Source of the DNA: Chaetoceros tenuissimus
Taxonomy: Eukaryota; Bacillariophyta; Thalassiosirophyceae; Chaetocerotales; Chaetocerotaceae
Length of the DNA: 64,000 nucleotides
Direction of reading: 5' to 3'
Assembly: GCA_021927905.1 (NCBI GenBank)
Contig: BLLK01000074.1
Coordinates: 186,001 to 250,000 of the forward strand
The position numbers and the translations under genes are program-made. The notes beneath the pieces are model-generated. The model saw only the letters and a list, made by a program, of their open reading frames with translations. It searched no databases and was not told where the DNA came from. Numbering within the stretch: the first letter of the stretch is position 1; every line of letters starts with the position of its first letter. Of the stretch, positions 39,958 through 46,000 are shown piece by piece.

Positions 39958-39959
39958 TA

Positions 39960-40170
39960 TTATTGTTTTCGAAAAAGATGGAAAAGAGAAAAAAAGAAAA
40001 AAAGGCAAAAAAGAAAACATTTCTCGACCACCACTATAACACCTAGTAAAAACTACGTTTGCTCTTTTCTCTATGAATATAGTACCTATTCACCTAAAAA
40101 GTGGTTCAATCTCTACCTACTAATCAAGCTTGAGAAGACTGGAGTATTAGTTTACGGTGAAAGGATGCCT
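39960..40170 (+). repeat. Left TIR of the Tc1/mariner element
   Basis: 211 bp, inverted match to 42577-42787. It begins TTATTGTTTTCGAAAAAG, contains a purine run, a TTTTCTCTATGAATATAG segment that may act as a promoter, and ends GGATGCCT, which includes the ATG and second codon of the accessory ORF. Confidence 0.9.
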
Positions 40171-40927
40171 AATCCTAGAAAGAATCGAAGAAGCACTTCT
40201 GAGAGCAACAAAACTACAAGCTCAAAGAAGGCTCGGACACAACGTCCCTATAGGTTGGCTATGCATGTACAGACCTATGCTAAGCAAAACCCAAATGCAA
40301 AGGTCAACCCAATGGAGAAACCTTTTGAAATTGAGTATGATTTCAATAAGCATACTTTCAGTAGAATCAAAGCAAAGATTCAAGAAAGTATTGGAACTGA
40401 AAACTTCCGTTCAAGATTCCCTGAGTATGAGGTACTAGACACATCCTACGGCATCAAGATTTGGAATGGAAAGCGATCAAAAGACAAAAGATCTTCTTCT
40501 TTGAAGAGTATTACCTCTTTTACAATTGATGAAGGTACTGCAGATCCAGAAAGTATTTGGACAAAGTATCCAAGTGAAGCCAGAAAGATTTTACGACATA
40601 GAGTGTGGGAGGGAGAAATTAGAAATGAAACTTTTCGACTTCATAATGAGTTTGAAGAGTAATGTTCATCCAAGACGAGGTGCTTTTGAAGAGCGTATTT
40701 TTTTAATTAAAATGAGCTCTGGGGAAGAGTGTGTATATACCAAGGAAGAAAGTAAATATACAACACTCTCTTCCTTGGTAAATATTGCAAATATTCAAAA
40801 GGGGGAAATTTTGCATATCACCAGTGCAGTTCGAACTGAAGCTTCCGAGGATTCAGAGGGTTATGGGATTTCAGATGATGATGGAGAGGGTAGTCAAAAT
40901 GAGGTATCTCAAGATAGCTCTTCTTAG
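40165..40927 (+). CDS. Accessory protein of the mariner element (one frameshift)
   Basis: ATG at 40165 lies in the TIR. The first frame runs 165 codons to 40662; a protein-like second frame, offset by one base, continues to 40927 (NVHPRRGAFEERIFLIKM... ending in an acidic Ser/Asp tail). One extra T near 40663 separates them, so the full product would be about 253 residues. No splice pair fits, so this reads as a plain frame break, or a sequence error. The N terminus is strongly basic (RKNRRS, KKARTQRPYR), the C terminus acidic. I know no such accessory gene in typical Tc1/mariner elements, which carry only transposase; DNA binding is a guess from charge. Confidence 0.6.
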
Positions 40928-41400
40928 ATAGAAGATAAAGAATAACAACCCTATATATTTGCAACTTGAAGCCATCTTTTTCTCCTTCTCTTTTCCAAAA
41001 AGCTAGCATTGGGGCCGACGACCTTGTATTATTTCAACAAACTGATCAGCCCATCTGACACTAGCCATAACAATCAACAGATACTCTCTTAGCAACCCAC
41101 ACAGAACCCTGTCTGGATGTAGTTGACGCCACTCGCCACTGTGATCGCGCAATGGTCACGGGTCTGTAGCAGTACTTTCTACAACAGGGGATTGAACTTC
41201 GACAGACTATTATTTGTGTTTGATTCCAAGCCAGACTTACGGCAAGCTGGGTGACTGACAGGACTTGAACCAATGCACAACCAAAATTCTTCTTGCATAG
41301 TCTCGAATAAAGAAATACATAAAGGAAAGATTTTTGTCCTCACTTTTCTAAATGCAATATTTCATTAATCGAGAAAATAATATATATACAATTTAATTAT

Positions 41401-42582
41401 TTATAGTGAATGATTTACAGTTAATGCTACTATAAGATTTGATGCAAGCTCTTCTTCTTCTACTGTCGTCAAGATTTGATTGCTTAGTGGAACCTCACAT
41501 CGTCGGAATTCTTTTATGCATATGTCACGATTTCTACTTTGAAATGCAGCCATGTGAGTGCGATACCAATCATACTCAAAGGCTATTTCATTTCTCTTCA
41601 AATGATTTTTATAGATATTGAATGCCAATTCTATCGGGTTCAAATCTGGAGAATATGGTGCTGTATACAGCAAGTAAGCACCAGTAGCACGTATCATATC
41701 AGCTACACGAGAATCCATGTGTGTCGAGGCATTGTCCATTACAACTATGGATCTTGCTTCAGCTTTTAGAAAATTTCCAAGAGTCGGACACAAGAAATTT
41801 TCTACCCAGCTTTCAAAATATTCTGCGTTGACAGTTCCAGCGGCTCCTTCTGATGATATTTCATCTCGTATTACGCAGTCAACAGTTTCTGAAATAAAAC
41901 CGTTGATATCCAGAGCTGCAATCATTGTATATCTGACAGTATTTTTGAACCAGCGTTTCAAGGCCACTCCACCAGAGTTCCTCTTTCCCCACGCTCTTCT
42001 CCTACGTGAGGCCCTTCTATCTTTATGTGTTTCATCAACAAAAACTATTTGAGCTGGATCAGACACTAAGGTCTCCAGAGCTCGTTTGTATCTTAGTCTT
42101 TCAACTTCATTTCTTTGTTTTGCGCTTTCATAGCACACCTGTAGAGAAAGACCTAGCTTCTCTGTCAAAATACGATGGATGGTTGAAAGAGACAGCAGTG
42201 TCTTGTTATTTTTTGCTAGCGCCTGTTGAATCTCGTCAAGAAAAAATTCTGGATGCTCTTCTATGATTGCTCCAACTGCCTCCACAATAGCATGAGTCAC
42301 AATGTTTGTGTACTTGCACTTTTTATATAGTTTCCTCAACTTTTTCCTCTCTGCTTTTGTTTCATATGGATACTCTCCATACTTTTTATAATGTGAGTAC
42401 CAATTATGGAGTGTACTTTTTGGAATAGAATATTTTGCAGCTGTTTCTTTTAGCACATGGTCTATTGGACGACCTGGATTTAATTCTATAAGTTCTTCAA
42501 TGTGAACTAGACAAACGTGTTCTTTCCTCTTGCCCCACGGCAATTTTTGACTTGAAGATTGCACATTACTTGACTCAGGCAT
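41401..42582 (-). CDS. Tc1/mariner (IS630) transposase, DD34E
   Basis: 393 residues, ATG in the right TIR. N-terminal part has a helix-turn-helix (VLKETAAKYSIPKSTLHNWY) and a second one (FFLDEIQQALAKNNK...SLSTIHRIL), the paired-like DNA-binding region. The catalytic core follows with D1 in FVDETHKD (about 180), D2 in VVMDNASTH (about 280) and E in YSPDLNPIELAF (about 315), with 34 residues between D2 and E, i.e. DD34E as in Tc1. All three carboxylates are present and the frame is intact, so the protein is likely active or recently so. It cuts at TA and inserts the element there. Confidence 0.9.
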   Translation of the reverse strand: MPESSNVQSSSQKLPWGKRKEHVCLVHIEELIELNPGRPIDHVLKETAAKYSIPKSTLHNWYSHYKKYGEYPYETKAERKKLRKLYKKCKYTNIVTHAIVEAVGAIIEEHPEFFLDEIQQALAKNNKTLLSLSTIHRILTEKLGLSLQVCYESAKQRNEVERLRYKRALETLVSDPAQIVFVDETHKDRRASRRRRAWGKRNSGGVALKRWFKNTVRYTMIAALDINGFISETVDCVIRDEISSEGAAGTVNAEYFESWVENFLCPTLGNFLKAEARSIVVMDNASTHMDSRVADMIRATGAYLLYTAPYSPDLNPIELAFNIYKNHLKRNEIAFEYDWYRTHMAAFQSRNRDICIKEFRRCEVPLSNQILTTVEEEELASNLIVALTVNHSL

Positions 42583-42787
42583 CCTTTCACCGTAAACTAA
42601 TACTCCAGTCTTCTCAAGCTTGATTAGTAGGTAGAGATTGAACCACTTTTTAGGTGAATAGGTACTATATTCATAGAGAAAAGAGCAAACGTAGTTTTTA
42701 CTAGGTGTTATAGTGGTGGTCGAGAAATGTTTTCTTTTTTGCCTTTTTTTCTTTTTTTCTCTTTTCCATCTTTTTCGAAAACAATAA
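42577..42787 (-). repeat. Right TIR of the Tc1/mariner element
   Basis: Inverted counterpart of the left TIR, 211 bp; its inner end holds the transposase ATG. Confidence 0.9.
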
Positions 42788-43056
42788 TATTCGTGCTTGC
42801 CAAAAATTCACAACGGCTCAAATATTTGCACCAAGAAATGGCCTATTAGATTCTCCACACGACTAACCAATATTTCTTACAACGGGGAAAGGCGGGCTTT
42901 CCGCAAAGCTTTGTGCACCAATTTTTCGGAAGTCGGAAGTGTTCTTCCGATCTCCACATGTGTTGTGCAGCCTCCCTCAACACTGGATTACTCACTACCA
43001 TTGCAACATCATAGAGTTACAAGTGTGCAGCCTACTTGTATTTAGATAGATAAAAG

Positions 43057-46000
43057 ATGGCGCAAAATGTACCAATCATCTTTAATGAGGCTCTCAACGT
43101 ACGTAGCTTTTTGTGGACTGAATATGTGTTGGAAAAGCTTTATTAGGGAACGAGGAGACAAGATACGACCTGCTGCTCGATAGGGAAGATCCGATTGTGT
43201 TATGGGTCATTTGAGTTAAAGCATTGGCCACTGGTATAGTTGAATATTTCATGAGAGGCTATTGACTTGATCTATTATGACTTGCATGTATCATGTGTCA
43301 AAGATATCTATTCTATACATGGTCTGATGCGAACCTCTCTCATTGGAGCGAACAATGCCAATGAACTTTCATCCAAAAGAGCAGCAGATCTTGTCTCTTC
43401 CTCTCGTGTACTGTATATCTAACTAATATTTCAAATCTCACACACTGCCTTTACTTCTCTATAACAACAGCTCACAGCGTTGGGAGTCCCAGAAACATCG
43501 ATCAAACATGGATTCACCACCATGTCCTCGGAGAACTGGATCGTTTGTGTAGAACCAAATCAGGTCACAATGGTAGACCTCAAGAACGGAGGACAAGTCA
43601 CCAGACGTGCAATCACTGCAGAAGCGGCTGTCATGAACCCTGCGCAGAACATCATCGCACTCAGATCAGGAACCCGTGTCCAAATCTTTAACCTTGATGC
43701 AAAGCAAAAGCTCAAGTCCTACGAGATGCCGGAAGCCGTCGTTTTCTGGAAATGGGCCAATGAATCTACCCTCGCCATGGTTACTGCTACCTCTGTATTC
43801 CACTGGAGTCTCTCTGGAACAGATGATCCAACAAAGGTCTTTGACAGACATCAATCACTAGGACCGAATTGTCAAATCATCAACTACTCCGTCTCTCCTG
43901 ATTCAAAATGGTGTCTTCTTGGAGGAATCTCTTCCGGACAAGGAGGAATCAATGGAAACATGCAACTCTACTCTACTGAAAAGAAAGTGTCACAGCCATT
44001 GCAAGGTCATGCGGGAGCATTTGCTACCATCAAGATTATGGGACGTGATGACCCAGCACAAGTACTCGTCTTTCATCAGAAGAAAAATGATGTGCCACAA
44101 GAACCACCACAGCTCTTTGTCATGGAAGTGGGAAGAGACCCTGCAAAGGGAGCAGCGTTCCGATTGGCACCGACTCAAATTCCTGTTCCGGCAGATGCAG
44201 CGGCTGACTTTCCTGTATCACTCGTGATTGATAAAAAGGATGAGATTGCGTTCTTAATGACGAAAATGGGATACCTTTACATGTTTGACATTGTATCCGG
44301 AAAAACTATGTACAGAGCCAAGATTACCCAAGATGTTGTCTTTTGTACCGCCACCCAAGAATCTACTGGAGCAATGTACGGTATCACCGTTCGTAAAGGA
44401 CAAGTGTTTAGAATTCAGCTCAATGGACAAGCACTCGTTCCATACATTGTATCCACTTTGAGAGATAATGACTTGGCAATCAAGGTGGCTGGAAGATTGA
44501 ATCTTCCAGGAGCGGAAAATCTTTATGCGGCGGAGTTTGAAAGACTTATTGGTGCTAGAGATGTTGTCAATGCTGCAAAACTTGTTGCTTCCAGTGGAAC
44601 TGCTTTGAGAACCCCTGCCACCATTGCGAGATTTCAGCAAATACCGGCTGAACCTGGTTCTCCTCAGCCTGTCTTCCAGTATTTCTCTACCCTCCTTGAA
44701 AGTGGAAAGTTGAACGAACAAGAGAGTATCGAATTGGCAAAACCTGTTTTGCAACAGGGACGTCCACAGCTTTTGGAAAAGTGGTTGAAGGATGATAAGC
44801 TTCAATGTTCCGAAGCACTTGGAGATTTGATCATGCCATCTGATGTTGGAATGGCGCTTTCTGTATACCTACGTGCAGAATGTCATGCAAAGGCTATCAA
44901 CTGTTTTGTTCAGCGTGGAGAATATGACAAAATTGTTCCATATGCAACTAGTGTTGGATTCAAGATGGATTACTCCACCATGCTTAGTCAATTGCTTTTC
45001 AACAACCCACAGGGTGCACTTGACCTTGCAAAGGGACTTGTTAACGCGGAAGGTGGTCCACTCATTGACATTCAGTCTACTGCTGAAGCATTCCTTTCTT
45101 CCAACCGTGTTCAGGAGACTACTGCATTCCTCCTTGAAGCATTGAAGGATAACAAGGAAGAGCATGCTTACCTTCAGACTAAGCTTCTTGAAATTAACCT
45201 TATTGGAGGAGCACCACAGGTTGCTGATGCAATCATGCAAAATGGAATTCTTACTCATTATGATCGTGCTCACGTTGGAAAGCTTTGTGAAAAGGCAGGA
45301 ATGTGGCAGAGAGCAGCAGAACATTACACTGACATTAATGACATCAAGCGTGTTTTCAAGAATAGCCACCAAATGGCACCAGAGTTTGTTATTGAATATT
45401 TCGGAAAGCTTAACCGTGAGCAGAGCATTGCTCTTCTTAAGGATATGTTGTCTCGTGGACCAGCTAATGTGCAAGTATGCGTTGAAGTTGCAAAGAAGTA
45501 CAACGAAGAACTTGGAGCAACTGAGCTTGTAAAGGTTTTTGAAGATAACAAGGCTATGGAGGGTCTTTACTATTACCTCGGAGCTATTGTTAACTTTTCT
45601 GAAGATCCTGTTGTTCACTTCAAATACATTCAGGCTTCTTGTATGCTCAGTCAATTCAAGGAGGCAGAGCGTGTATGTCGTGACTCCAACATTTACAATC
45701 CAGAAGAAGTTAAAGATTACTTGAAGAATGCTAAGCTTCCAGATCCACGTCCACTTATCCATGTGTGCGATAGATTCGATTTTGTTGATGAGTTGACTGA
45801 ATACCTTTACTTGAACAGTCTTTTGCAATACATTGAGGTTTATGTTACTAAGGTATCCCCAGCAAAGACTCCACAAGTTATTGGAAAGCTCTTTGATCTT
45901 GGAGCAAATGAAGATTTCATTAAGCGTATCCTTATGGCAGTTGGAACTGCATGCCCAGTTGATGAATTGGTAGAAATTGCTGAAACTCGCAACCGTCTTC

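Follow-up and report, generated by a model that had tools for sequence, protein, structure and literature searches.

A predicted Tc1-type transposon of Chaetoceros tenuissimus with the start codons of both genes inside its terminal inverted repeats

How can one terminal inverted repeat (TIR) serve two unrelated genes and stay identical at both ends of a transposon? This question is raised by an element at positions 39960..42787 of the window, which is a stretch of 64,000 nucleotides of Chaetoceros tenuissimus DNA (GenBank assembly GCA_021927905.1, contig BLLK01000074.1, positions 186,001 to 250,000). The initial annotation described a mariner element whose perfect 211-bp TIRs end after ATG plus one codon, and this anatomy proved exact. 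The inverted pair 39958-40170 / 42577-42789 measures 213 bp with the outer TA and 211 bp without it, and it contains 0 mismatches. The identity between the arms ends directly after GGATGCCT on the left and on the right. The ATG-CCT at the inner end of the TIR forms codons 1 and 2 of both convergent open reading frames (ORFs), namely ORF 40165 (+ strand, 165 aa) and ORF 42582 (- strand, 393 aa), each of which opens with Met-Pro. Since two unrelated coding sequences follow one common leader, the identity is bound to stop near the start codons. The non-trivial trait seems to be that the common stretch takes in the ATG as well as the second codon of each gene and has apparently been kept identical over time. 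The element is quite probably an internally deleted copy of a two-gene, TA-flanked DD34E transposon, with TIRs that supply the starts of both genes and are kept identical by copying between the arms.

The whole genome (41,027,912 bases in 68 contigs) was searched for copies with the same TIR, as had been proposed with the initial annotation. Four complete copies were found: C58 (the window copy, 2832 bp with the TA), C14 (2836 bp), C13 (4099 bp), and C54 (4047 bp). The Met-Pro start lies inside the TIR at both ends in all four, and the claim that both genes begin from the TIR was borne out. The two arms differ at one position in C13 and at one in C54, and they are identical in C58 and C14. Each copy has TA at both ends, and the flanks beyond the TA are unrelated. 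When a 24-base pattern of the TIR end was used with up to 3 mismatches, nine matches were found in the genome, which are the eight arms of the four copies and one solo TIR on C38; the reversed control gave 0. Of the four transposase frames, those of C58, C13, and C54 are open, and that of C14 is broken by a 4-bp tandem insertion.

The evidence for copying between the arms comes from the comparison of the short copies (C58 and C14) with the long copies (C13 and C54). In the columns with a base in all four copies, 11 substitutions separate the two pairs. Four of the 11 are located in the TIRs, where they form two mirrored pairs, at positions 56 and 126, each present in both arms. At these two positions, the solo TIR on C38 reads G (56) and C (126). 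These bases indicate that position 56 changed in the long lineage and position 126 in the short lineage, and that each change reached both arms. When four substitutions were placed at random, two mirrored identical pairs appeared in 5 of 2,000,000 trials, in a test that was framed after the pattern had been seen. The 95% relatives P0001 (accessory) and P0003 (transposase) were compared at the protein level. Both start with Met-Ser where the two proteins of the window element start with Met-Pro. The simplest account is that the TIR arms, start codons included, appear to have been homogenised by mutual copying. Published systems are given here and below as described in the relevant passages of the cited papers. 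TIR conversion is described for bacterial insertion sequences (PMC3004938), and growth of TIRs via the uptake of internal sequence is described for Galileo (PMC4168063).

Two other explanations of the identical arms were weighed. Youth alone, with no arm copying and with the inclusion of both ATGs as a one-off, fits the close likeness of the copies, which is 5/2832 substitutions between C58 and C14 and 6/4047 between C13 and C54. However, both fixed long/short TIR differences are mirrored in the opposite arm, one per lineage, and the 95% relatives carry the same new codon-2 residue in both genes; youth alone is quite unlikely. The other explanation is selection rather than conversion, in which transposase binding and promoter needs would impose the same change on both arms. 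A parallel is found in the TBE elements, whose arms are 93-96% alike and for which the authors propose recent insertion or selective constraint (PMC4724952). It is hardly likely that codon 2 and sites 56 and 126 are all binding contacts, and differences private to one arm of one copy do exist without a mirror image, at position 190 in C13 and at position 81 in C54, which makes selection an unlikely cause. Homogenisation by arm copying also bears on the earlier reading of the perfect TIRs as a sign of youth. That argument is weakened, since homogenisation would keep the arms identical; the little divergence between the copies themselves (5/2832 between the window copy and C14) does point to recent movement.

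The 165-aa ORF had been taken as the accessory gene of the element, and this view was not upheld. In C13 and C54, a frame of 675 aa is open from the TIR ATG. In C58 and C14, the four-copy alignment shows that the same 1265 bp are missing from the accessory gene, which causes a frameshift. The truncated product consists of 135 original residues and a 30-residue foreign tail followed by a stop, and the 165-aa ORF aligns over residues 1-137. Only two relatives of the accessory protein were found among 5.8 billion proteins, P0001 (95%, 675 aa) and P0002 (82%, 641 aa). The long frame is kept in both, and a profile search returned the same two homologues and no more. The alternative of an insertion in C13 and C54 was rejected, since the 675-aa frame continues across the additional 1265 bp and persists in P0001 and P0002; the difference is read as a deletion in C58 and C14. 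On this alignment, the window copy is a deletion derivative, and its 165-aa ORF is what is left of a 675-aa gene. The deletion is common to C58 and C14, which lie at different sites, so a copy with the deletion has moved since. This evident movement indicates that the long accessory protein is dispensable in cis; for the deleted copies, it could come from C13 or C54.

The KP repressor of P elements is a truncated regulator, and the 165-aa ORF might be of the same kind, or a real accessory gene. The same truncated ORF is indeed intact in two of the four copies, but the presence of two identical truncated ORFs is accounted for by transposition of a copy that already carried the deletion. The tail past residue 135 is a frameshift product of that deletion, the other two copies have a frame of 675 aa, and the relatives retain the long form. 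A gene or regulator kept on purpose in this form is most improbable. The features of the deleted window copy are collected in Table 1.

Table 1 Features of the window copy (C58) of the transposon, in window positions.
Feature	Coordinates	Strand	Remarks
TA, left outer end	39958..39959		Presumed target-site duplication; TA presumed to be target rather than element
Left TIR, 211 bp	39960..40170	+	Matches right TIR perfectly; accessory start codon and codon 2 inside
Left TIR, presumed roles			Transposase-binding end, promoter, and 5' leader; binding and promoter putative
Truncated accessory ORF, 165 aa	40165..40662	+	Residues 1-135 of the 675-aa protein, then 30-residue frameshifted tail
Junction of 1265-bp internal deletion	40570..40571		Common to the C14 copy; from the four-copy alignment
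Accessory gene 3' remnant, 357 nt including stop, out of frame	40571..40927	+	Aligns to intact residues 556-675
Transposase, 393 aa, DDE_3, D183/D283/E318 (DD34E)	41401..42582	-	Pfam PF13358, E 7.6e-19
Right TIR, 211 bp	42577..42787	-	Transposase start codon and codon 2 inside; presumed roles as for left TIR
TA, right outer end	42788..42789		Presumed target-site duplication

The class of the element was determined from its transposase. The only Pfam match above its cut-off was DDE_3 (68.4 bits against a cut-off of 28.6), and four other matches, with helix-turn-helix types among them, were below their cut-offs. The triad D183, D283, and E318 is invariant in 27 aligned sequences, with 34 residues from D283 to E318. 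The alignment contains the transposase of the window and 26 of 120 listed homologues, out of 445 in all at E up to 0.001. Among the matches listed, the best-ranked relative with a named organism is from Chaetoceros debilis. No solved structure matched the transposase at E 0.01. The predicted transposase is a member of the IS630-Tc1-mariner superfamily, of the Tc1 type DD34E. The triad of strict mariner elements is DD34D, and the third triad residue here is Glu. The name mariner is therefore right for the broad superfamily, through DDE_3, and not for mariner proper, since the triad is DD34E.

The element was also set against other classes. The Mutator/MULE elements, such as MuDR, make a target duplication of 9 bp. 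Here, the flanks past the TA differ between the two sides in all four copies, and DDE_3, the sole Pfam match above cut-off, is not a MULE transposase domain. From the TBE elements, the window element is set apart by its two ORFs, its TA, and a TIR without C4A4-type repeats by eye. The usual structure of Tc1/mariner elements is a single ORF, a length of ~1.3 kb, and TIRs of ~30 bp (PMC7325037). The copies found here have two ORFs, lengths of 2.8-4.1 kb, and 211-bp TIRs.

Relatives with DNA context were also sought in other collections. In viral_contigs, no pattern match was obtained with the transposase on its own, and none of the 62 pattern matches obtained with the accessory alignment was a relative. 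The alignment of the 27 transposases gave 54 loci there, with no best segment above 48% identity, and the TIR end had 0 exact matches. In genome_contigs, the best segments of the best 80 of 342 loci found with the same 27 transposases were at most 47% identical, and these loci are bacterial by title. The search of the plasmid collection returned 797 records, and the best place in each was below 60%.

One of the closest known layouts is that of MuDR of maize, in which TIRs of ~200-215 bp are the promoters of two convergent genes, one for the transposase and one for an accessory protein (PMC8224964, PMC3440606). One paper calls the second protein "required for Mu element integration", and another calls it "of unknown function" (PMC8224964, PMC3440606). 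Each gene is driven by its own TIR, and the two are silenced via different routes (PMC8224964). The window element shares with MuDR the two convergent genes and the long TIRs, for which a promoter role is presumed here; it differs in the transposase superfamily and in the target duplication. In the MuDR passages, transcription starts in or just inside the TIR, and start codons in the TIR are unmentioned (PMC8224964, PMC3440606). The TBE elements of stichotrich ciliates are Tc1/mariner elements with accessory ORFs and with a TIR that abuts or overlaps one start codon (PMC4724952). They differ in having three ORFs, of which the transposase alone starts at a TIR while the other TIR lies next to the end of the 57kD ORF, as well as in the target duplication ANT and the telomeric repeats in the TIRs (PMC4724952). 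The Tec elements of Euplotes, also Tc1/mariner, resemble the window element in long TIRs (~700 bp), extra ORFs with one in the complement, and DD34E, but they have three ORFs, and one of these is a site-specific recombinase (PMC7325037). Minos and other long-TIR Tc1 elements have TIRs of several hundred bp and DD34E, but the usual Tc1 structure is one transposase ORF (PMC7325037). Galileo of Drosophila has very long TIRs able to absorb internal sequence, including a 69-bp piece of an ORF end in one copy; it belongs to the P superfamily, and the recruited piece is an ORF end, not start codons (PMC4168063).

The initial annotation knew of no standard Tc1/mariner element with this symmetrical design. 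MuDR and TBE show related designs, and the convergent two-gene, TIR-driven layout is already known. No element with start codons in both TIRs was found described in the relevant passages of the open-licence PubMed Central literature that was searched, with subscription papers outside its scope. Both starts within TIRs that appear homogenised would be the new trait. The observation goes beyond its first description through the mirrored evolution of the TIRs, and it is weaker than first described through the truncated accessory gene and the known layouts.

A further explanation concerns the start of translation. Frame 0 of the TIR is stop-free over 71 codons and in phase with both genes (39960-40170, 42577-42787), and the ATG at the TIR end might then not be the start, with the proteins beginning further out or as fusions to host transcripts. 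The chance of such an open frame is 0.0015 under a first-order model and 0.0035-0.017 under block shuffles, and it reaches 1.7% under local 15-base shuffling; of the 18,226 stretches of 213 bp sampled from the window, with coding sequence included, 13.9% are open. The open frames extend to 468 and 239 aa in the window copy, and of the four sites that vary in the TIR, three are silent with respect to this frame. However, it has no in-frame ATG upstream within the TIR, and the C38 relic has indels within the stretch. Translation through the TIR is very unlikely, and the ATG at the TIR end is the predicted start. The TIR open frame has a Lys/Arg-rich beginning.

In the proposed working of the element, a complete form of ~4.05-4.1 kb would carry a convergent 675-aa accessory gene and a 393-aa transposase gene, each of which would be supplied by one 211-bp TIR with promoter, leader, ATG, and codon 2. 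The identity of the TIRs would be maintained by copying between the arms (gene conversion or gap repair), through which a change in the leader or start region would reach both genes. By analogy with MuDR, a promoter is expected in each TIR, and candidate A/T boxes are present at 40035 (TATAA) and 40078 (TATAG). The accessory protein may likewise have a MuDR-like helper role. The initial annotation had concluded that both genes must be expressed equally. Such equality would not follow, because silencing differs between mudrA and mudrB and half of the copies here have a truncated accessory gene; the MuDR analogy argues against it. It is possible but doubtful that the TIR acts as a single module (binding end for the transposase as well as promoter, leader, and start codon of two genes) in which arm conversion locks the expression of both genes together, with neither dose drifting alone.

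A second DDE_3 family is present in the same genome. Its C61 copy (L048:3549-7458 = C61:54548-58457) has TA at both ends, TIRs of 157 bp that are 98% alike, and a transposase convergent with a Cys-rich accessory ORF, whose protein is different from that of the window element. A partial copy on C34 (L047, C34:1350198-1353587) matches 3375/3910 bp. Paired TIR-end matches of this family on C14 and C48 resemble miniature inverted-repeat transposable elements. The layout of the second family indicates that start codons in the TIRs are not needed for a convergent two-gene arrangement, and the recurrence of this arrangement marks the start codons in both TIRs as a special trait.

Several points weigh against the reading of a two-gene transposon with homogenised TIR starts. 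The case for conversion is built on two mirrored sites and two protein starts; P0001 and P0003 are separate protein records that may come from different contigs, and the P0002 record has no N-terminus. The solo TIR relic on C38 stops at position 165, ahead of the ATG, and in the C61 copy of the second family the start codons lie outside the TIRs, ~210 and ~290 bp further into the element. Two out-of-frame ATGs are located upstream in the TIR, at positions 21 and 116, and the main ATG would be hampered if transcription started before them. No empty site was found, and the flanks of the window copy have no second place in the genome. The accessory protein matched no Pfam family at E up to 10, and its AlphaFold model, made with 4 sequences, was unusable at a mean pLDDT of 35.7. 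With no Pfam match and no usable model, the role of this protein is a guess. Among solved structures, it had no significant match, the best being at E 0.71.

Other observations were made on the copies and their surroundings. The 4-bp tandem insertion of the C14 copy (L019) is a CTAG duplication near the transposase start, which could be the footprint of another element. The C54 copy (L021) has a 52-bp deletion between the two genes, outside both frames. The solo TIR relic (L022:2557-2728, C38:1504056-1504227) is 93% alike to the TIR up to its end at TIR position 165. A decayed scrap (L023, C38:401243-401427) contains a transposase piece (86%) beside a piece of the accessory-gene end (78%) and is perhaps what remains of an earlier deletion derivative. 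One Pfam match of the 165-aa form was below threshold (E 0.099) and was disregarded, and a ubiquitin-like stretch at about residues 54-120, considered by eye, was dropped, as no search supports it. The short inner direct repeats of the TIR are A-rich runs. The gene adjoining the element at 43480 encodes a clathrin heavy chain.

The finding carries a warning that perfect TIRs need not date an element. The pair of long and short copies offers a clean means to ask whether a Tc1-type transposase needs a partner. If the reading is true, a Tc1-type element would join the MuDR-like layout of two genes driven from the TIRs, and a 675-aa transposon protein without any Pfam domain would be added to those known. 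The element would also be a natural example of two promoters that are forced to stay identical by the element's own recombination.
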